A program made the position numbers and the translations under genes. A stretch of DNA of 64,000 nt from the NCBI GenBank assembly GCA_024689085.1, contig JAILDT010000099.1, positions 1 to 64,000 of the forward strand. The letters run 5' to 3'. The stretch comes from Clostridia bacterium (GTDB taxonomy: Bacteria > Bacillota > Clostridia > Peptostreptococcales > Anaerovoracaceae). The notes beneath the pieces are model-generated. The model was given only the letters and a program-made list of their open reading frames with translations, was not told the DNA's origin and did not search any database. Below, in pieces: positions 8,416-17,550 of this stretch (the stretch's first letter is position 1; every line of letters begins with the position of its first letter).

Positions 8416-8446
8416 CAAAAAAGGCTGCGCAACGCAGCCTTTTTAT
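8416..8446. terminator. Bidirectional terminator between mgtE and crotonase gene
   Basis: aaaaaaggctgcg-caa-cgcagccttttt. Confidence 0.85.
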
Positions 8447-8455
8447 AATGCTGTT

Positions 8456-9232
8456 TTACTTGTTTTTGAACTCTGCTGCCCTCTTCTCCAGGAACGCCGA
8501 CGTTCCTTCCTTCAGGTCTTCTGACGAGAAGGAAATGCCGAAGGAGTTGACTTCCAGCTCTGATGCGGATTTCATATCCATATCATAGCCGTTGTTGATG
8601 CAATGCTTGGCGACGCCAACAGCGATCGGAGCTTTGCTCATAATCGTCTTCGCAAGAGCTTCGCAAGTCGGCATCAGTTCTTCCGGTTCAACGACCTTCT
8701 CAACCAGTCCGATACGTCCGGCTTCTTCCGCGCCAATGACCTCGGCTGTGTAGATCAGATACTTGGCCATGCCTTTGCCGACCAGTCTGGAGAGTCTCTG
8801 TGTTCCGCCGAATCCAGGGATCAGACCCAGGCCAACCTCAGGCTGACCGAACTTGGCCTTTGCGGAAGCAATTCTGATGTCGCAGGCCATGGACAGCTCG
8901 CATCCGCCGCCCAGTGCGAAACCGTTGACCGCCGCGATGACAGGTTTGCTCACGTTCTCGATGAAGTTCATCGTTCTGTGTCCCGCTTTTGCAAATTCTC
9001 TGGCTTCCAGAGTGTTGAAGTTTGCCATCTCCGCGATGTCCGCACCGGCAACGAAGGATCTGCCGTCGCCTGTCAGGATCGCAACCCTGGCTTCCCCATC
9101 TGCATCAAATTCTGCAAAAGCATCATAGAGCTCTTTGATGACCTTTGAGTTGAGCGCGTTCAGCGCTTCCGGTCTGCAGACTGTGATGTAGGCAATGCCT
9201 TCTTTTACTTCGTATTTCAGTGTTTCGTACAT
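8456..9232 (-). CDS. crt: Enoyl-CoA hydratase/3-hydroxybutyryl-CoA dehydratase (crotonase family)
   Basis: NALNSKVIKEL, SFVAGADIAEM, GFALGGGCELSMACDIRIAS, GQPEVGLGLIPGFGGTQRL. Confidence 0.92.
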   Translation of the reverse strand: MYETLKYEVKEGIAYITVCRPEALNALNSKVIKELYDAFAEFDADGEARVAILTGDGRSFVAGADIAEMANFNTLEAREFAKAGHRTMNFIENVSKPVIAAVNGFALGGGCELSMACDIRIASAKAKFGQPEVGLGLIPGFGGTQRLSRLVGKGMAKYLIYTAEVIGAEEAGRIGLVEKVVEPEELMPTCEALAKTIMSKAPIAVGVAKHCINNGYDMDMKSASELEVNSFGISFSSEDLKEGTSAFLEKRAAEFKNK

Positions 9233-9286: not shown

Positions 9287-10195
9287 TCACAATCCGAGCC
9301 GTTCTTCATCCAGTTTGCCCTTTTCTCTGATGACGATATATCCCGCCGCAACGACGATGATACCGCCTACGATCTGGAGCGGAGTAATCGTCTCATGCAG
9401 AAAGATCACGCCGCATATAGCGGTGCTCACCGGCATAAAGTCCGAATAGATTGCCGCAGGCGTCGGCCCAATCACTTTGATGGCAAATACATAGATCACA
9501 AATCCGATGGCTGCGTTCACGATGCCCATGTACAGGACGATCGCCCACAGAGACGCCGGCCAGGCAGAAAGTGCCGGCATGCTGCGCAGAGCCAGCGGCA
9601 GCAGAATGAGACCTGCGCAAGTCAGCTGCAGGAATGCCAGGCTGATGGAATCATATTTCCGAAGCGCATCAGTGAGGAAATTGAAGATATTCCAGCATAT
9701 GACCGCACCAAAGGCGATCAGATATCCAATCAGCCTTCCCTCAAGAAGAATGCTGAAATCTGCGCCAATGACAAAGACGATGCCCACGATACAGCCAATA
9801 ATACCAATGATAATCTTTTTGTTGGCTTTGCGCTTGAAAACCACCCTCTCGACGAGGACCGAAAGAGCCGGCACAAAGGCAAGCAATATCGTGAGAAGCG
9901 AGACCGGCAGATACGACATGGCGTTAAACTCGCACTCAAAGTACAGAATCTCACCGAATATTGAACAGGCGATGACCAGAGGGATATCTTTTTTCGCAAA
10001 GAAACTTTTATCCCTGCGGATGACTTTGACGATGCCGAGGGCGATGGCGCCAATAGAGATCCTGGCAAAGAGAAGACAATTCGGCGTCAGATCGTACATG
10101 CCGAACTTGGCAACGACATAGTCGAATCCCCACAACATGACCAGAAAAATCATCAGAATATGCGCTTTGATTATCGTGTTTTTAGAGTTGCTCAT
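9287..10195 (-). CDS. EamA/DMT-family transporter
   Basis: 10-TM EamA pattern (MLWGFDYVVAKFG...; PTPAAIYSDFMPVSTAICGVIFLHETITPLQIVGGIIVVAAGYIVI); ATG at 10195 overlaps the upstream gene stop by 4 nt. Confidence 0.88.
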   Translation of the reverse strand: MSNSKNTIIKAHILMIFLVMLWGFDYVVAKFGMYDLTPNCLLFARISIGAIALGIVKVIRRDKSFFAKKDIPLVIACSIFGEILYFECEFNAMSYLPVSLLTILLAFVPALSVLVERVVFKRKANKKIIIGIIGCIVGIVFVIGADFSILLEGRLIGYLIAFGAVICWNIFNFLTDALRKYDSISLAFLQLTCAGLILLPLALRSMPALSAWPASLWAIVLYMGIVNAAIGFVIYVFAIKVIGPTPAAIYSDFMPVSTAICGVIFLHETITPLQIVGGIIVVAAGYIVIREKGKLDEERLGL

Positions 10196-11373
10196 AGCAT
10201 GTTCTCGGATACTTCGATTTCTGAGAGATGCAGGGTGTCTTTGATCTTTACGATTTTCGGATGATGCAGATCGATGCCGATGCACGTTTGCAGCGCAGCG
10301 CGAATCGCCTCTTCCTCGCTGTCCATGATGACCGGAATCTTCATGCCGTTGGTGTTGCCTGAAGCGATGCCGTTGGTGTATGTGACGCCGAGGTCAATCT
10401 TATCCAGCGCTGAACGGAGTATGAAATCCGCCATACCGAAACCGATGGCATTGCCGTGGGCCCCTTCCGTCAGGTCCTCGATGATGATGCGCTGCACGCG
10501 CGGCACAGCGCCCGGAAGCTGCCCGAAAGCGTCCCGGCCGATGATGTTCGGGTCCATACCTGTGCCGCTGATTTCTTTGCCGATCCGCTCCACGATAAGC
10601 ACATCAATATCATCGTACTTGATGCGCGGCATAAGGCTTTTGGCCAGATCCAGCAGCTTCGGTTCACGGGTCAGGATGTTTTTGCCCGGTACGGCTTCCA
10701 CAGTATGTGTTTTTTCAAAAGCGTTCTCGATGACGGCAAGCCCGAAGGGGATGTCAACTCTCCCGATGATGACCTCGGCCGCATCAGGGATTGTGTGCGC
10801 AAGAGCCGGAAATCCTTCTCTGTGAATCCGCGAGCACCCATTGTGCTTACCCCCGCCAATAGCCAGCATCTTACAGAGGCCGCTCTCGACTTTGCCTGTG
10901 AAATCCGTGTGCGGCTTGACGCGCCCGATCGGAATGACGTAGTCCGCAGCGAGAGCCGGTTTGGAGAAATGAACATCCATTCCGTCTTCTGTCTGCCCGA
11001 TGATCTCCGTTTCCATGGAGGAATTGATCGGTACGTCCATGGTCTCTGCTGTGATACCGTAACCTTTGAGAATCTCCTCTTGCCCTTCCGACGTCCCGCC
11101 TCCATGGCTTCCCATGGCCGGAATGATAACTGGCTTTACACCGGCATCTCGCAGGGTATCGACGACGGCTTTTGCAATGAGATTGATATCCGTGACGCCG
11201 CGGCTTCCGACAAGGACGGCCGCCGAGGCCCCTTCCCTCATCTGCGCAGCAAAAGGCGCAGCCTGTGCTTTCACAGCCGCAGCCGTATCTTCCAGATGTT
11301 CATCGGCGAAGACCTGTTCGACCTTCACCATCTTCGGTAATTGCAGATTTCTGACTGCTTCCGGGAGTATCAT
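10192..11373 (-). CDS. LarA/DUF2088-like protein (lactate racemase N-terminal-domain family)
   Basis: PAMGSHGGGTSEGQEEILKGYGI, RVKPHTDFTGKVESGLCKMLAIGGGKHNG, typical of DUF2088/LarA-like proteins. Confidence 0.7.
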   Translation of the reverse strand: MILPEAVRNLQLPKMVKVEQVFADEHLEDTAAAVKAQAAPFAAQMREGASAAVLVGSRGVTDINLIAKAVVDTLRDAGVKPVIIPAMGSHGGGTSEGQEEILKGYGITAETMDVPINSSMETEIIGQTEDGMDVHFSKPALAADYVIPIGRVKPHTDFTGKVESGLCKMLAIGGGKHNGCSRIHREGFPALAHTIPDAAEVIIGRVDIPFGLAVIENAFEKTHTVEAVPGKNILTREPKLLDLAKSLMPRIKYDDIDVLIVERIGKEISGTGMDPNIIGRDAFGQLPGAVPRVQRIIIEDLTEGAHGNAIGFGMADFILRSALDKIDLGVTYTNGIASGNTNGMKIPVIMDSEEEAIRAALQTCIGIDLHHPKIVKIKDTLHLSEIEVSENML

Positions 11374-11388
11374 GTTCTGCTCCTTCTC

Positions 11389-12663
11389 CTACAATTTCGT
11401 GTACAACACTTTGCCCGACGGGTTCCGCGGAATCTCGTCGATGTATTTGATGTGGACGAACCGCGGTCTTACCTGCCATTTGTCCATAAACATGCCGGCA
11501 ATCTCATATTCTCTGTCCGCCGTTTCCCGGCTGCTGGTGTGCACCGTGATGCCATCGTCATCGTTTCCCGTACAGATGATATCTTCACAGGCAAAAGCTT
11601 CCTGCAGGTCTTCCTGCACCTTGTCCAGGCTGATTCTCCTGCCCTGAATCTTGACAAAGCGCTTCTTACGTCCTGTGATGTAAAAGTACCCTTCTTCGTC
11701 CATCCGGGCCATATCGCCGGTCTTCAGACAGCCGCCGTTCACGTCGCCAAGGGCCAGATCTTCCCGCGACCGCGCATATCCGAGCGAGACGTTGGCGCCG
11801 AAATAGATCAGTTCGCCGTCTTCGGCGATAACCATGCTGCCGCCCGGCACCGGAATGCCGATGCTGCCGATCTTCGCAGCGCATTTTTCCGGCGGGATGT
11901 AGCTCATGCGGGCTGTTGCTTCTGTCTGCCCATACATAATGAAAAACCGTCTGCCGGTCTCAGCCGCCCAGTTAGCGTACTTCTTCTGCAGATCCTCGTT
12001 GAGGTGTCCGCCCGCCTGTGTCAGTGTCTTCAGGTGCGGCAGATTCATCTCACGAAGGTGCAGCCGCTCAAACATATCGTAGGTGTACGGCACGCCCGCC
12101 ATGGACGTGACTTCATATTTCTCAACCATCTCCCAGAATTCCTTCTGGAACAGGGTTTTGTTCGTCAGAACGATCGTTGCACCGACCGCAACATGGGAGT
12201 GGATCACGGACAGTCCATAGGTGTACTCCATCGGGAGCGTGGTGATCGGCCTCTCATCAGCCGTAATGCCAAGATACTCTACAATGGAATCGCAGTTGGC
12301 CTGGATGTTTTCATAGCTCAACCGTACGAGTTTCCGGTCGCCCGTACTGCCTGACGTGGAAAGCAACAGTCCCAGCTGTGGATTGACCGCATCGTCACCT
12401 TCATAGGTTTCCCGGAAAGACACTTTGACGTCCTCATCCAGATTTCTGCCGATGAGCAGGACCGGACAGCCCTTTCTCAGGAGCGCCAGATATCTGGCCA
12501 GACTCTCCGCGTCGTTGGAGCATTCGAGTATCACAACACCGCGGCAGTCTTCTGTGAGCGCGTCACCCATGTCCCAGATCTGCCCGTAGGTATACTCTCT
12601 GCCCTCGTCATCGATACAGATTATTCGGTCTTTGTATTCATCGTTTCGTTCAAAAAAGTACAT
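11389..12663 (-). CDS. AMP-binding (ANL superfamily) acyl-CoA/acyl-ACP synthetase-like ligase
   Basis: STSGSTGDRKLVRLSYENI, MYGQTEATARMSY, LKTGDMARMDEEGYFYITGRKKRFVKIQGRRI, NPSGKVLY; short N-terminal domain. Confidence 0.9.
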   Translation of the reverse strand: MYFFERNDEYKDRIICIDDEGREYTYGQIWDMGDALTEDCRGVVILECSNDAESLARYLALLRKGCPVLLIGRNLDEDVKVSFRETYEGDDAVNPQLGLLLSTSGSTGDRKLVRLSYENIQANCDSIVEYLGITADERPITTLPMEYTYGLSVIHSHVAVGATIVLTNKTLFQKEFWEMVEKYEVTSMAGVPYTYDMFERLHLREMNLPHLKTLTQAGGHLNEDLQKKYANWAAETGRRFFIMYGQTEATARMSYIPPEKCAAKIGSIGIPVPGGSMVIAEDGELIYFGANVSLGYARSREDLALGDVNGGCLKTGDMARMDEEGYFYITGRKKRFVKIQGRRISLDKVQEDLQEAFACEDIICTGNDDDGITVHTSSRETADREYEIAGMFMDKWQVRPRFVHIKYIDEIPRNPSGKVLYTKL

Positions 12664-14912
12664 GATAATAATGCAATCAGGTCCTTACGGTCCCATACGG
12701 TATTGAAATCCAACGCTTCTCCGGCGCAGACGACTCTGTCGACGCCTGCACAGTCCGCCCTGCGCATGTGTTCATAGATGTCCTTCTGATTGTCACCGCT
12801 GCTGACGATAGTCTGGATACGAGCCTCCATATAGCCTGCCAGTTCATTCAGACTTCCAATCTGCATCTCGTAGAACATACCGAACCGGGCTTCCAGATCC
12901 GTCAGTTTTCTTCCATCATTCGGGACCGGCACCACGTAGAGCCGGTTGCCCCAACGCTTCGCGGCGCCCAGATTCTTCTGCGTCGCGTACATCCTGCATA
13001 AGATCCTGTATTTTTCCGTGGCGATCCACGGCTGCAGATCATAGGTGGACGCTTCTTTCGCAAAGGCATCCCACCATCTGTTTCTGATTTCTTCGCTGTC
13101 CGAAGCGCCGTCCGTCAGCCAGAAGATGGTCTTCGGGCTGGAGCAGGCGTTCTGATCGGCTCCGTATGTATCATTGTAGAACATGTGGGCGAAATGCCCC
13201 AGCTCCTGATCGTCCATTTTTCTGAAGTCCTCCGTTCGGAACAATGCGACGGAGTACTTGTCCGGGAACGTGACGTCAACGCAGTCAGCCCCTTTCGGGA
13301 TGCTGCAGATGTGTTCTACCGTCCCATCGCCGCCCCAAACGATTCTGGCCTTTGCCTGCGACGAAATCTCTTCCAGCGTTTCATCTCCCCGCGGGAAAGT
13401 TACAAAGGCGTTCTGTTGCTTCAATAACGCAAAAGCCGGCCTGTCCAGAATCTTGCTGATTCCCTGGATTGCTACTTCTGTGATCTCAGAACTTCTGCCC
13501 GACACACGCACGATATTCGGATTGCCTGCCAACAGCGAAGCAATCCAAGAATAGGCGAACATCGTCGGCATGTTCGAAGGCGCAATGTGCAGCGTGAGAC
13601 CTTTTCCCCGTCTGTCTTCTGAGTCCGCATAACCGCTGCGGATCTTCTCCATGTGCGCGTGTCTGCACCAGAATCCAAGTGCGTAGAGTTCCGGATACTG
13701 CCGGTACATCGGTTCCTTCATGAACAGCTCGGACAGTTCCGCCAGAAACTCCATGACCGTATCATCGAATGCATTACGGATGGTCTCCGACGGCGGATAA
13801 GCCCCCGCCAGAACCTGCATCGCGCCTTCCGCATCGATGTCACCCGGAGTGCCTGTTGCTTTTGCAGCGCCTTCAAAGGTGTCGCTGCAGCCACGCACTT
13901 CCGCCTTGCTGATGCGGCCGCTGATCTCGAAGTACTTGCCTTTGCGTCCGCATGGGCAGTCATCGATGCCCAGAATCCTGCCCCAGTCTTCTGTAAGCAG
14001 CCGATGTCCCGGATAGGATTCCGGCAGAAGGGATTCCAGAGCGATCAGTCCCCACTCCCCTGTCCTACATGGAGAGAAATCCTCTGGATGCAAAACTGAA
14101 ATATCCGAATAGATGCTGGCGTGGAGATGCCCCTCCGGACACTGCATGAAGATGCTGCCTGTCTGCTCCGCCATGCCGTAATAATCGCTGACGCTGTCGA
14201 TCCCGCAAGTCTCCTGCAGCCCGCTTCGGAACACCTCATCGGAAACTTTTTTGTCCTGCAGTTTCTTCCATCCGCCGCCGTGGATCAGATGGCACCCTGC
14301 CAGGTCTACTGTTTTTGCATCCGCTTTCAGGCCGCCGTAGAGGTACTCCCAGATCATATAGGTGAATCCAAAGGCGAAAGTCGGCCCTTCTTTGGCAAGC
14401 TGCTGGAACTGTTCCAGCGACGCGTAGTCGATCCGCATGTTCTCGTCTAAAGCGTAGATGCGCTTCGACGCCATCATGGAAAATCCGAGAATGCCGGCGC
14501 CTCGGGCCGTGAATTTTCTCCTGTCCCGGAGCACATCCGGTGAATCGATGATCAGCATCGGTATGCGTTTTGTCCCGATGTAATCTCCTGTGATGCTGCA
14601 CAGGGCACGCTGCTGGGCTGCCGACGTATCGGCATCCAGATAGATCCGTGAGACCTGCTGACCTGTGGTTCCGGAAGAGGTGATCTTCCGGATGATCTGC
14701 TCATCAGGCACGCTCACAAGATCGATATCTTTGAACAGTGCAACCGGCAGGTAAGGAGCGTCCTCACCCAGCCCATTACAAATATCATCGTAAGCCGCAC
14801 AGGCTTTACGATGATCTTCTGTCATTTTCTTTAACTCTTTTCTATAGAATGATTCCTTGTCAGCCTGTGGTACGCTGTAGGGATCCATCTCCAGAAACTC
14901 AATGCGGTTCAT
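12621..14912 (-). CDS. LuxE (acyl-protein synthetase)-LuxC (acyl-CoA reductase) fusion protein
   Basis: N-half: KITSSGTTGQQVSRIYLD, HLIHGGGWKKLQDKKVS, YGMAEQTGSIFMQCPEGHLH (LuxE/PaaK-like). C-half: LTLHIAPSNMPTMFAYSWIASLLAGNPNIVRVSG, YGADQNACSSPKTIFW (LuxC/ALDH-like Cys). Single uninterrupted ORF; start trimmed to ATG 14912, preceded by AGGTGA. Confidence 0.88.
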   Translation of the reverse strand: MNRIEFLEMDPYSVPQADKESFYRKELKKMTEDHRKACAAYDDICNGLGEDAPYLPVALFKDIDLVSVPDEQIIRKITSSGTTGQQVSRIYLDADTSAAQQRALCSITGDYIGTKRIPMLIIDSPDVLRDRRKFTARGAGILGFSMMASKRIYALDENMRIDYASLEQFQQLAKEGPTFAFGFTYMIWEYLYGGLKADAKTVDLAGCHLIHGGGWKKLQDKKVSDEVFRSGLQETCGIDSVSDYYGMAEQTGSIFMQCPEGHLHASIYSDISVLHPEDFSPCRTGEWGLIALESLLPESYPGHRLLTEDWGRILGIDDCPCGRKGKYFEISGRISKAEVRGCSDTFEGAAKATGTPGDIDAEGAMQVLAGAYPPSETIRNAFDDTVMEFLAELSELFMKEPMYRQYPELYALGFWCRHAHMEKIRSGYADSEDRRGKGLTLHIAPSNMPTMFAYSWIASLLAGNPNIVRVSGRSSEITEVAIQGISKILDRPAFALLKQQNAFVTFPRGDETLEEISSQAKARIVWGGDGTVEHICSIPKGADCVDVTFPDKYSVALFRTEDFRKMDDQELGHFAHMFYNDTYGADQNACSSPKTIFWLTDGASDSEEIRNRWWDAFAKEASTYDLQPWIATEKYRILCRMYATQKNLGAAKRWGNRLYVVPVPNDGRKLTDLEARFGMFYEMQIGSLNELAGYMEARIQTIVSSGDNQKDIYEHMRRADCAGVDRVVCAGEALDFNTVWDRKDLIALLSCTFLNETMNTKTE

Positions 14913-15543
14913 GTTCTTCACCTTTGACGTATGATGGTCCATGTCCCGGACAGATTTTCATGCCGTCAGGGATTTTTTTCAGGATCGGCATAGTCAGTTT
15001 CTCATAATCATCGGCATCTCCGCCCCTCAGCCTCAGGGTTGTCTCTTCACCCGGAATCATGTAGTCTCCGCTGAAGAGGTACTCGTCATCCATCGTTATA
15101 AGCACGCTGCCAGGCGAATGACCCGGCGTCCGGATAAAATCGAAGTTGTGACCGCGCCATGTCATCTCGTACGTTTCTTCATATGTGATCTCCGCCTGTC
15201 TGCAGGTAAATCTCGGCGTTCTCTCTTCGGAGATAATGCCGGTTTTGAAGTAAGAAATCATGTCCCCGATCGTTGAAAGATTCTCCTTAGGATTCTCTAA
15301 ACGCTCACTGCATATTCTGCACGCTACAACGGGAACATCGTACTTGCTGCGAACTGTTTCCAGATTTTCGATATGATCAACGTGTTCGTGCGTCAGAAAT
15401 ACATACTCCGGAATCCATCCGTTCTTATCTATTTCCGCCTCCACGACTCCATTCTGTCCCGGATCGATTATCACAACATAACCATCCTCTTCAATCAGAT
15501 AGCTATTGCAGATTGTCTTTGGTGAGGTGAGTTTTGTAATCAT
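14899..15543 (-). CDS. MBL-fold metallo-hydrolase
   Basis: VFLTHEHVDHIENLE (HxHxDH), TPGHSPGSV, LFSGDYM, PGHGP. Confidence 0.92.
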   Translation of the reverse strand: MITKLTSPKTICNSYLIEEDGYVVIIDPGQNGVVEAEIDKNGWIPEYVFLTHEHVDHIENLETVRSKYDVPVVACRICSERLENPKENLSTIGDMISYFKTGIISEERTPRFTCRQAEITYEETYEMTWRGHNFDFIRTPGHSPGSVLITMDDEYLFSGDYMIPGEETTLRLRGGDADDYEKLTMPILKKIPDGMKICPGHGPSYVKGEEHEPH

Positions 15544-15550
15544 CTCTTAG

Positions 15551-15796
15551 CTATTCGTCGAAGTTCACTCCGTACTTCTCTGTCAGAATCCTGATACCCT
15601 TCTCATAGGTCGAAAGATCCAGCACGTCCTTGGTGTCCATCTGGATGCCATAGGCCGCCTCGATGTCGGCAATCAGATCCATGTGCCCGACGGAATCCCA
15701 CTGGATAATTCCCATGTATTCCAGCCCCGGCAGATCCTCTTCTTTCACTCTGAAATTCAGTACGAATGCTCTCTTGTATTTCTCGAGATTTGTCAT
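15551..15796 (-). CDS. Acyl carrier protein
   Basis: 81 aa; phosphopantetheine site WDSVGHMDLI; acidic helical ACP pattern. Confidence 0.88.
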   Translation of the reverse strand: MTNLEKYKRAFVLNFRVKEEDLPGLEYMGIIQWDSVGHMDLIADIEAAYGIQMDTKDVLDLSTYEKGIRILTEKYGVNFDE

Positions 15797-15826
15797 AGTA
15801 TGTCCTTTCTTTATCTCAAAACTTCC

Positions 15827-16705
15827 TCAGTCGATATCTTCCACAATCTGCTCCGGCGGCAAATCCAGCTTGTCCGGATCGCTGAAGCACTGCCGCAGCT
15901 TTCTGAACGCCGTCGCGAAGTAATATCCGTCCACAATCCTCTCATCCGTTGAGAGTGTGTAATCCATGTATTTTCTCTTTACGATCTCTCCGTTCCGGTC
16001 GATCTCATATTCCGTTCTCTTCGGGCCGGTAGCGCAGAACACCGGCACGTTTCCGAAGCTGTAAAGGTGATGGAAAATCGGAGGAATCCGCAGCGAACCC
16101 ATAGAGGTGATGAAAAAGCTGCCGTGGAACGGACTTACTTCCAGAAGCGATTTCGGAAGCAGCCCGAAGTAATCCAACAGTTTCAGAAACCATATGGAAA
16201 ACTTGAAAAACAGCTTTGGGAATTTCGCCAGCGTTGCCGCAACACCGTCAAAATCGCTGTCGTTTCCTCTGTTTTTTTCCTGATCAATGACCTCTTTCAT
16301 CTTGTAATAGACCTGTTCCGCCGTGTCCTCCGGACTGAGGATGATTTTGACACAGGTATTCGGTGCCTCCAGGGTCATCTCCTTTTTGATATCGATATTC
16401 ACTTCGATTCTGTCTCTGGCGTAAACTCTCTGACCGGAGACGAACCGGTTGACGGCGGGCATCTGCGATACGACCCGGACGTAGGATGCGACCATCACGT
16501 GCATCAGTCCGAATCCGCTCAGCCCTTCGTCCCTCTTTCTTCTAATGTATTCTTCCGCTTTGGAAATCTCGACTTTATCCTGTATGAAATTGGTTGCTCC
16601 TACTCTGTCGACAAGAATAAATGTTTCAACAACACTCATGGGTTCACGCGTACGCAGCAGTCTGCCGTCTTTGCGATCGCCCCGTCTTTTCTTTCTGCCT
16701 TCCAT
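15827..16705 (-). CDS. E2/CAT-like acyltransferase-fold protein (2-oxoacid dehydrogenase acyltransferase catalytic-domain family, no lipoyl domain)
   Basis: GSFFITSMGSLRIPPIFHHLYSFGNVPVF and DERIVDGYYFATAF correspond to E2 C-terminal motifs; ATG at 16705 has a better RBS (AAGGA) than the ORF start 16726. Confidence 0.72.
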   Translation of the reverse strand: MEGRKKRRGDRKDGRLLRTREPMSVVETFILVDRVGATNFIQDKVEISKAEEYIRRKRDEGLSGFGLMHVMVASYVRVVSQMPAVNRFVSGQRVYARDRIEVNIDIKKEMTLEAPNTCVKIILSPEDTAEQVYYKMKEVIDQEKNRGNDSDFDGVAATLAKFPKLFFKFSIWFLKLLDYFGLLPKSLLEVSPFHGSFFITSMGSLRIPPIFHHLYSFGNVPVFCATGPKRTEYEIDRNGEIVKRKYMDYTLSTDERIVDGYYFATAFRKLRQCFSDPDKLDLPPEQIVEDID

Positions 16706-16736
16706 ATATTCCTTTTCCTTACGCATTCCCCATTAA

Positions 16737-16765
16737 AATATATACTAAAACGAACCGATACGCAA
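16737..16765 (-). promoter_or_regulatory. Predicted promoter of the LuxE-LuxC operon
   Basis: TTGCGT-17 nt-TATATT on minus strand, ~30 nt before ATG 16705. Confidence 0.45.
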
Positions 16766-16793: not shown

Positions 16794-17483
16794 TCACTTC
16801 TTTTTCAGTGTCTTCAGATACTCCTTCTGTTCCGGTGTAATGCGGTAACTCTCCCGCGCCTTCTGAATCGCCTTGTTATGGGTCCATATGTCCAGTCTTT
16901 GCTCTTCCAGGAATCGAATCGCCGTATCGTACTGTTTGGCCAGAGCCGTTGCGAAGTACCAGGCAATCATCATATTCACGTAGTACTCCTCCGAGCGAAT
17001 CTTCGCGACCGTCTCCGGATAACCCGGGCTGAAATCGTCGTCGAGAAAGTGCTGCATCAGCATGCCGATACCAAAGCGGATGATGTACGTCTCTTCTGAC
17101 TTCAGCCACTTCTCAATATGCAAAAGCAACTCGCTCCTGTGCTTCTTAAAGACTTTTGGAGAAAGCTGATCACAGGTTGCCCAGTTGTCGATGTACGGCA
17201 AAAACTCCTCTGCCAGTCCGATGCACCGTTCATAATCCTTCTCCTCGGAAATGAGAAACGCGTGCAGCTGGTTCTCATCGAAGTACTCGTGCGGAAGCGA
17301 CTTCAGAAACGCGTCCGCTTCCTCCGCTCTTTCCCTGTGCAGTTTCTTCGCCAGATTTCGCAGCTCCGGCGTCCGCACGCCGATGATTCTCTCCGGGTCC
17401 ACCGTCGGGAGCAGTTTCCTCTGAAAATCCCGGTATTTCACATCCTGCAGTTTGAACAGTTCTTCTCTGATGGAATCAATCAT
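16794..17483 (-). CDS. DNA alkylation repair protein (AlkD-like HEAT repeats)
   Basis: GVRTPELRNLAKKL, NWATCDQLSPKVF, WLKSEETYIIRFGIGMLM, WYFATALAKQYD. Confidence 0.92.
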   Translation of the reverse strand: MIDSIREELFKLQDVKYRDFQRKLLPTVDPERIIGVRTPELRNLAKKLHRERAEEADAFLKSLPHEYFDENQLHAFLISEEKDYERCIGLAEEFLPYIDNWATCDQLSPKVFKKHRSELLLHIEKWLKSEETYIIRFGIGMLMQHFLDDDFSPGYPETVAKIRSEEYYVNMMIAWYFATALAKQYDTAIRFLEEQRLDIWTHNKAIQKARESYRITPEQKEYLKTLKKK

Positions 17484-17520: not shown

Positions 17521-17550
17521 AGAAAAAGCGGTGGTTGCCCACCGCTTTTT
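17521..17550 (-). terminator. Terminator of the NuoE/NuoF/GltD-Mo oxidoreductase operon
   Basis: agcggtgg-ttgc-ccaccgct followed on minus strand by a T-rich tract. Confidence 0.8.

Follow-up and report, generated by a model that had tools for sequence, protein, structure and literature searches.

A clostridial gene cassette built around a LuxE-LuxC fusion: a candidate ATP-dependent, carrier-protein-based route from acid to aldehyde

The DNA analysed here, referred to as the window, is a stretch of 64,000 nucleotides (positions 1 to 64,000, forward strand, of contig JAILDT010000099.1, assembly GCA_024689085.1) from a member of the Anaerovoracaceae, class Clostridia; the source bacteria are uncultured anaerobes, probably of rumen origin. 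On its minus strand lies a gene cassette built around a fusion of LuxE and LuxC, the acyl-protein synthetase and the acyl-protein thioester reductase of lux systems. The core of this cassette encodes the fusion, an acyl carrier protein (ACP), a metallo-beta-lactamase-fold (MBL) hydrolase and an ANL-type ligase. In our reading, to which we assign a probability of about 0.55, it is a carrier-protein-based, ATP-dependent system that makes an aldehyde by reducing a short hydroxy or enoyl acid, probably of C4 type. The acid-to-aldehyde chemistry predicted from the sequences is well supported. The features read from sequence on which it draws are the genes present, the identity of their domains, the two catalytic cysteines, the constant gene order, selection and, in other families, a link to 4-hydroxybutyrate genes. 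In what follows G000 is the window genome, and the window contig, C37, C69 and C70 are contigs of it.

Results

The fusion (763 aa; 12621..14912, minus strand; PF04443, E=2.5e-40, and PF05893, E=5.1e-24) consists of an acyl-protein synthetase domain (residues ~1-350) followed by an acyl-protein thioester reductase domain (~370-750). With phmmer, residues 31-346 aligned with LuxE of the Photobacterium phosphoreum LuxC-LuxE complex (7xc6_E). C342 of the fusion, invariant in 11 relatives, was thereby aligned with C364 of LuxE, the known acyl site. The sole match of a profile of the LuxC half was the LuxC chain of the same complex (7xc6_A, 2e-24), and C590 was aligned with the cysteine of its DQQACFS motif. 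Both cysteines are invariant across the genus, and the LuxE adenylation motifs T78-S-S-G-T82, YYG-EQTG and TED are invariant among relatives. The predicted structure of the fusion gave 7xc6_A as its best fold match (E=2.2e-14); since the model had a pLDDT of 64, with a weak LuxE half, only the LuxC match was taken from it. Scores to the known families were low (139 and 85 bits for the LuxE and LuxC Pfam models; 46.6 bits for the LuxE model NF052244, against a cut-off of 550). From the aligned cysteines, the adenylation motifs and the fold match, it is very likely that the protein is an acyl-activating and acyl-reducing enzyme. A preliminary description of this locus had called the protein a LuxE-LuxC fusion, which is borne out by the two Pfam domains in one protein and the two aligned cysteines. 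Its further proposal, that an acyl group is activated and passed through a LuxE-type cysteine to a LuxC-type reductase, stands in outline.

The ACP (81 aa; 15551..15796, minus strand) had no Pfam match. A profile of its family found solved ACPs, and the motif WDSxGHM (WDSVGHM here, with Ser35) is invariant, including the phosphopantetheine serine; identity across the genus is 64-99%. The ANL-type AMP-forming ligase (424 aa; 11389..12663, minus strand; PF00501, E=1.5e-34) had TIGR03098 as its best NCBIfam match, contains STSGSTG, YGQTEA and PRNPSGK, and is 56-85% identical across the genus. We propose from its sequence that it may load an acid onto the ACP. The glyoxalase-II-like MBL hydrolase (14899..15543, minus strand; PF00753, E=1.5e-20) has recognisable metal ligands (HEHVDH, H, D, H), and its nearest solved structures include hydroxyacylglutathione hydrolases, annotated as glutathione-thioester hydrolases. 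In locus L096 (genome G322) the corresponding place, between ANL and LuxE-LuxC, is taken by a type II thioesterase (PF00975). The locus in the window has this MBL fold and no LuxD-type alpha/beta hydrolase, and we propose that the MBL protein could be a LuxD-like acyl-ACP thioesterase. No luciferase genes (luxAB) were found among the operon genes or their immediate neighbours, in agreement with the earlier statement that a dedicated ACP is present with no ketosynthase or luciferase near by. All operon genes are under purifying selection (dN/dS 0.04-0.12 against the nearest orthologues), which excludes chance open reading frames (ORFs).

The fusion, or large parts of it, was found in about 20 of 37 genomes of the genus, the window genome included. 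Every intact genus locus has ACP, MBL, LuxE-LuxC and ANL in the same order and on the same strand. In most relatives a MaoC hydratase directly precedes the ACP, and an aldo/keto reductase (AKR) with a C-terminal 4Fe-4S domain directly follows the cassette. Both are missing at the locus in the window species; the AKR is gone from it in G000, G015 and G007. An AKR homologue of 57-59% identity occurs elsewhere in G000 and G015, adjoining a gene like that for 4-hydroxybutyrate CoA-transferase (AbfT); the G000 copy (L203:7797-10277, contig C69) is 59% identical to the cassette reductase. In the genus the cassette lies among genes of formate-dehydrogenase type and of the butyrate pathway, and no glycosyltransferase or transketolase pair was recognised beside it in the genus loci. 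The preliminary description had taken seven genes as one conserved set. Three of them, those for an E2-like protein, a LarA group 22 isomerase and an EamA exporter, turned out to be patchy, and to these three the refuting condition set in that description, lack of joint conservation in relatives, applies. With the absence of MaoC and AKR, this reduces the seven-gene set to a core of four genes, around which individual lineages have lost or gained others. The fused form in an anaerobe, singled out in the same description, is real and not unique, for it is genus-wide among carriers and is found in two other families. The LuxE tree does not settle whether fusions found outside the genus have separate origins.

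Side observations were made at some of these loci. In G018 (L055:13045-17367) the place of the AKR behind the cassette is taken by saccharopine-dehydrogenase-like, unknown, Asp/Glu-racemase-like and octopine-dehydrogenase-like genes, and a changed end product is possible there. PTS_EIIC_2, isochorismatase and 3H-domain genes, which have the look of niacin salvage, lie near the cassette in some relatives and were discounted.

Outside the genus we used a class sample of 392 evenly drawn genomes from 223 genera. LuxE was found in 15 of these genomes, from 11 genera. The cassette is sporadic there and occurs mainly in two settings, namely glycan islands, which are taken up in the Discussion, and islands for 4-hydroxybutyrate/crotonyl-CoA fermentation. 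The gene for 4-hydroxybutyryl-CoA dehydratase (AbfD) was present within the 20-kb stretch in five (G300, G320, G408, G225 and G325) of the 14 other clostridial genomes that carry the cassette. The five belong to three families, and their AbfD is 77-89% identical to that of G325; AbfT was also present in four of the five. The G325 proteins matched 1u8v, a solved dehydratase of gamma-aminobutyrate metabolism (AbfD, 805 bits), and 3gk7, a 4-hydroxybutyrate CoA-transferase (AbfT, 553 bits). The chance probability of three independent AbfD linkages among 14 carrier genomes is ~1e-4. In G300 the cassette lies beside crotonase, 3-hydroxyacyl-CoA-dehydrogenase-like, thiolase-like, AbfT, AbfD and 4hbD-like genes. 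Clostridium cadaveris (L042) has the order MaoC-ACP-MBL-LuxE-LuxC-ANL, with LuxE and LuxC unfused. The N-terminal part of its MaoC is a cysteine-rich domain, which elsewhere occurs on its own next to 4-hydroxybutyryl-CoA dehydratase. An AbfD-AbfT-4hbD operon is also present in the window genome, on contig C70.

In the AbfD operons (L115:7702-9972 in G000 C70; L100, L101, L103, L154-L156) an NFU-domain protein and a cysteine-rich protein of ~90 aa (CGGCNPRY...GCSRSC) are encoded beside AbfD and AbfT. It is such a cysteine-rich protein that is fused to MaoC in C. cadaveris, and likewise in L097. The two are possibly an iron-sulfur maturation pair for the dehydratase.

The three lineage additions were examined separately. 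The first (10192..11373, minus strand), described earlier as LarA/DUF2088-like, could be assigned to 'nickel pincer cofactor-dependent isomerase, group 22' (NF052515; 493.6 bits against a cut-off of 400). With the catalytic and cofactor positions of nickel-pincer enzymes taken as in PMC7583248, alignment with the canonical LarA of L097 showed that the two catalytic His and the Lys that anchors the nickel-pincer nucleotide (NPN) are kept. LarE (261 bits) and LarC were found in the window genome. The idea that group 22 is its sole nickel-pincer enzyme, so that the lar genes serve the operon, was ruled out by a second LarA on contig C37. Within the window's clade, seven species have group 22 at the cassette locus, where it occurs together with the E2-like protein. 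In 20 other loci, where family names were mostly read from sequence starts, it is often accompanied by tripartite ATP-independent periplasmic (TRAP) or tripartite tricarboxylate transporters (TTT), DapA-like aldolases, dehydratases (including UxaA-like ones) and 2-hydroxy-acid dehydrogenases; in G225 it stands beside CoA-transferase, 2-hydroxyacyl-CoA-dehydratase-like, Etf and lar genes. To judge from these neighbours, the isomerase probably acts on a 2-hydroxy or sugar acid. Its distribution, along with its usual setting among TRAP/TTT transporters and sugar-acid genes, ruled it out as a core member. Two or three group 22 copies per genome were seen in L208 (G169), L213 (G175) and L209 (G141), the G169 genome having two copies close together on one contig with different transporters adjoining. 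Such copies suggest that the group probably covers several substrates.

The EamA/DMT-family exporter (9287..10195, minus strand; PF00892, E=8.8e-42) was encoded at the cassette locus only in G000, G015, G007, G017 and G031, and the export step of the preliminary description did not stand as evidence. The E2/chloramphenicol acetyltransferase (CAT)-fold protein, which has no lipoyl domain (15827..16726, minus strand; start probably at 16705 rather than 16726), matched just the C-terminal piece of PF00198 (E=1.2e-7), and its predicted structure matched E2 cores (best E=5e-13). The catalytic His of HxxxDG is replaced by Glu (DERIVDG), as it is in every homologue displayed. In G031 the orthologue is on a different contig from the cassette. 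Because of this lack of linkage and the absent His, its membership in the pathway is doubtful, and the gene may be unrelated. Stand-alone E2/CAT-fold proteins with DERxxDG were found in 34 of 49 genus genomes, mostly as distant paralogues, and a search by sequence gave no close solved structure. The earlier domain calls for ACP, MBL, ANL, EamA and E2 all hold, that for the ACP by its family profile and the others by Pfam.

It follows from this patchiness that two separate functions may be combined at the locus: the cassette, and an unrelated LarA group 22-EamA pair that handles 2-hydroxy- or sugar-acid isomers, with the E2-like protein unrelated to both. We regard this as a serious possibility, somewhat short of even odds; it is compatible with our reading of the core. 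The group 22 settings elsewhere and the unlinked E2 gene of G031 argue for it, as do the arsenic-type genes that separate group 22 from the cassette in G325, a genome of another family. Against it, the ORFs in the window overlap or nearly touch on one strand with no terminators, and group 22 keeps the same place in seven species. In G325 it is ~4.7 kb from the cassette, and its co-occurrence with the cassette is 3 against 0.86 expected (P = 0.047). This proximity and the slight excess leave room for a functional link between group 22 and the cassette.

With regard to transcription, the seven minus-strand ORFs are tightly spaced at the coordinates first described, the intervals from the E2-like gene to EamA being 30, 7, -14, -43, 15 and -4 bases in gene order. 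The only strong minus-strand terminators were those at 17550-17523 and 8444-8418, each with a 12-pair stem, and none of equal strength lies between them. The former (17523..17550) follows a formate-dehydrogenase-type operon and precedes a DNA alkylation repair-like gene (16794..17483, minus strand; PF08713). The latter (8418..8444) lies downstream of a gene for a short-chain enoyl-CoA hydratase (crotonase; 8456..9232, minus strand; PF00378, 5e-70; PRK05809 family, 348.8 bits). With no strong terminator ahead of 8444-8418, the crotonase gene (9232>8456) is probably co-transcribed as the last gene of the unit; it follows the cassette in 11 genus loci and was not seen in G018, G017, G010 and G002. 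The DNA alkylation repair-like gene, present in 6 genus loci and missing from others, is probably unrelated to the pathway. It may nevertheless be co-transcribed too, so that the unit may span 17483>8456. The promoter suggested earlier (16765..16737, TTGCGT-17-TATATT) has 8 of 12 consensus matches and falls under the scan threshold. As the scan also gave fewer promoter-like sites than shuffled sequences, this promoter is unproven.

Discussion

The scheme that we propose for the core, in which substrate, product, order of steps, thioesterase role and export are what we infer, is as follows. The ANL ligase would use ATP to load a free acid onto holo-ACP. In most relatives MaoC would hydrate or dehydrate the acyl group at its beta carbon while it is bound to the ACP, and in the glycan-island versions a ketoreductase, a short-chain dehydrogenase/reductase (SDR), would act on that carbon in MaoC's stead. 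The MBL protein would hydrolyse the acyl thioester in LuxD's place, the LuxE domain would re-activate the acid with ATP and hold the acyl group on Cys342, and the fused LuxC domain would accept it on Cys590 and reduce it with NAD(P)H to the aldehyde. In most relatives the adjacent 4Fe-4S AKR would then turn the aldehyde into an alcohol; in the window species this step would be done elsewhere, by the 59% homologue on C69, or be missing. Loading, release, re-activation and reduction would make the simplest scheme in which all four core proteins are used. It mirrors the lux systems, in which LuxD frees the acid that LuxE activates. The substrate would probably come from 4-hydroxybutyrate/crotonyl-CoA metabolism and be a short hydroxy or enoyl acid of C4 type, such acids being favoured because of the neighbouring genes and the absence of lipid genes.

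Several points weigh against this reading. Both the ANL ligase and LuxE activate acids with ATP, which makes the thioesterase step between them an assumption, and no MaoC turned up in the assemblies of either the window species or G015. The abf operon of the window genome does not adjoin the cassette and is present also in genus members that have no cassette, so it is a setting, not proof. The sugar-acid and 2-hydroxy-acid catabolism among which LarA group 22 is found clashes with a 3- or 4-hydroxy acid, and the sister cassettes of the glycan islands point to another use for the aldehyde.

These glycan islands contain NeuB, thiamine pyrophosphate (TPP) enzymes, a split transketolase and SDRs. 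In other Clostridia, Deinococcus, Rhizobium and Elusimicrobia the neighbours include a sugar transferase and glycosyltransferases, alongside the same ACP, ligase, LuxE and LuxC, and cassette versions are found on plasmids of Ponticoccus, Deinococcus and Rhizobium (L157-L159). One such island (L091/L092 and L093/L094, in G118 and G193) contains both a fused and a split LuxE/LuxC set. It also encodes an HMGL-like aldolase, a TPP enzyme, SDRs and probable transketolase halves; the aldehyde could there be the acceptor for a two-carbon transfer. The aldehyde of the window might likewise be a building block for a cell-surface glycan, joined in trans by a transketolase-like or glycosyltransferase step, and the cassettes of flagellin glycosylation islands (PMC7874193, PMC4875605) lend this some weight. 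The genus loci, however, have no recognised glycosyltransferase or transketolase pair, and their neighbours are of the formate-dehydrogenase and butyrate type. We therefore consider a glycan role unlikely here, if the best of the other fates for the aldehyde.

A long-chain fatty aldehyde, as precursor of a lipid, wax or plasmalogen, was dropped as the leading idea. LuxE and LuxC are known to act on tetradecanoic acid, and homology to them favours such a product. The cassette comes with an ACP and a ligase of its own, has MaoC and AKR as partners and is linked to C4 fermentation; no lipid or wax synthase genes adjoin it, and its scores to both families are low, which renders the fatty-aldehyde route improbable. 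Operation toward the acid as a detoxification, in which LuxC would oxidise an aldehyde and hold the acyl group for transfer to the ACP and release by MBL, would suit the usually oxidative aldehyde dehydrogenase fold of LuxC, but it would waste the ATP-binding motifs that LuxE and ANL keep and sits badly with an AKR partner from a reductase family, and we give it equally little credence.

The reduction of a C4-type acid by the core may be extended to a fuller picture. Clostridia fermenting 4-hydroxybutyrate or gamma-aminobutyrate would channel a hydroxy or enoyl acid of the C4 type to a dedicated ACP and, at the cost of two ATP, pass it to a Lux-type reductase to give an exported hydroxy-aldehyde or diol, the nickel-pincer isomerase setting the stereochemistry in the window's clade. 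This is a long shot, a shade below the glycan role in our estimation; if true, it would mean that anaerobic C4 metabolism has a branch not recognised before. We found no report in the literature linking such cassettes to 4-hydroxybutyrate fermentation. Nor did we find a described pathway in the literature on LuxE/LuxC cassettes, on LuxE together with transketolase, on 4-hydroxybutyryl-CoA dehydratase together with ACP, or on LarA group 22.

Among the closest published systems is the cassette of the flagellin glycosylation islands of Aeromonas group II and Enterobacteriaceae, with ACP, 3-oxoacyl-ACP reductase, AMP ligase, LuxE and LuxC, the last two listed as separate genes; as its product a liposugar was suggested by the authors (PMC7874193, PMC4875605). 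ACP, AMP ligase, LuxE and LuxC are together in the window as well. Unlike that cassette, the window's lineage has MBL and MaoC (the latter lost in the window) for the ketoreductase, there being no SDR in the window operon. LuxE and LuxC are fused, and formate-dehydrogenase-type and crotonase neighbours take the place of a glycosyltransferase or nonulosonic acid setting. The locus had been presented as undescribed. As the flagellin islands show, the kind of cassette is known but uncharacterised, and what is new in the window is the fused, MBL-containing form, which lies outside glycan islands and has a link to C4 fermentation; we found no description of it. LuxE/LuxC-ACP-ligase cassettes now extend over Clostridia, Alphaproteobacteria, Deinococcus, Elusimicrobia and, from the published work, Gammaproteobacteria, and we found no product reported for any of them.

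Of the clusters found in this work, C. cadaveris (L042) and G320 (L100) share the order MBL-LuxE-LuxC-ANL with the window, C. cadaveris adding MaoC and ACP, and G320 adding AbfD and AbfT. They differ in that LuxE and LuxC are separate and that LarA group 22, EamA and E2 are lacking. Being small, with few partners, and present in the culturable C. cadaveris, the fermentation-linked form offers a convenient way into the chemistry of all these cassettes. The window's isomerase agrees with LarA group 22 (NF052515) in scoring above the family cut-off and in keeping the NPN catalytic and binding positions. It differs in lying within an acyl-reductase operon, not beside sugar-acid transport and aldolase genes, so that a group 22 nickel-pincer isomerase gains a testable setting.

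With the lux system itself (LuxC-LuxD-LuxE of Photobacterium and Vibrio) the cassette shares an acyl-AMP/acyl-Cys synthetase of the LuxE type, a LuxC-type thioester reductase with aligned cysteines, and a hydrolase that could free the acid ahead of them. It departs from lux in the fusion of LuxE with LuxC, in having MBL for LuxD and its own ACP and ANL ligase, and in its weak similarity. ATP activation, a carrier thioester and reduction to an aldehyde are also features of the carboxylic acid reductases (CAR, Lys2), and the cassette would give strict anaerobes a natural ATP-dependent route from free acid to aldehyde, which would be of use in the production of alcohols and diols. In contrast to CAR and Lys2, the window has separate proteins, a LuxC reductase of the aldehyde dehydrogenase fold instead of an SDR-type R domain, and a second ATP step at LuxE.

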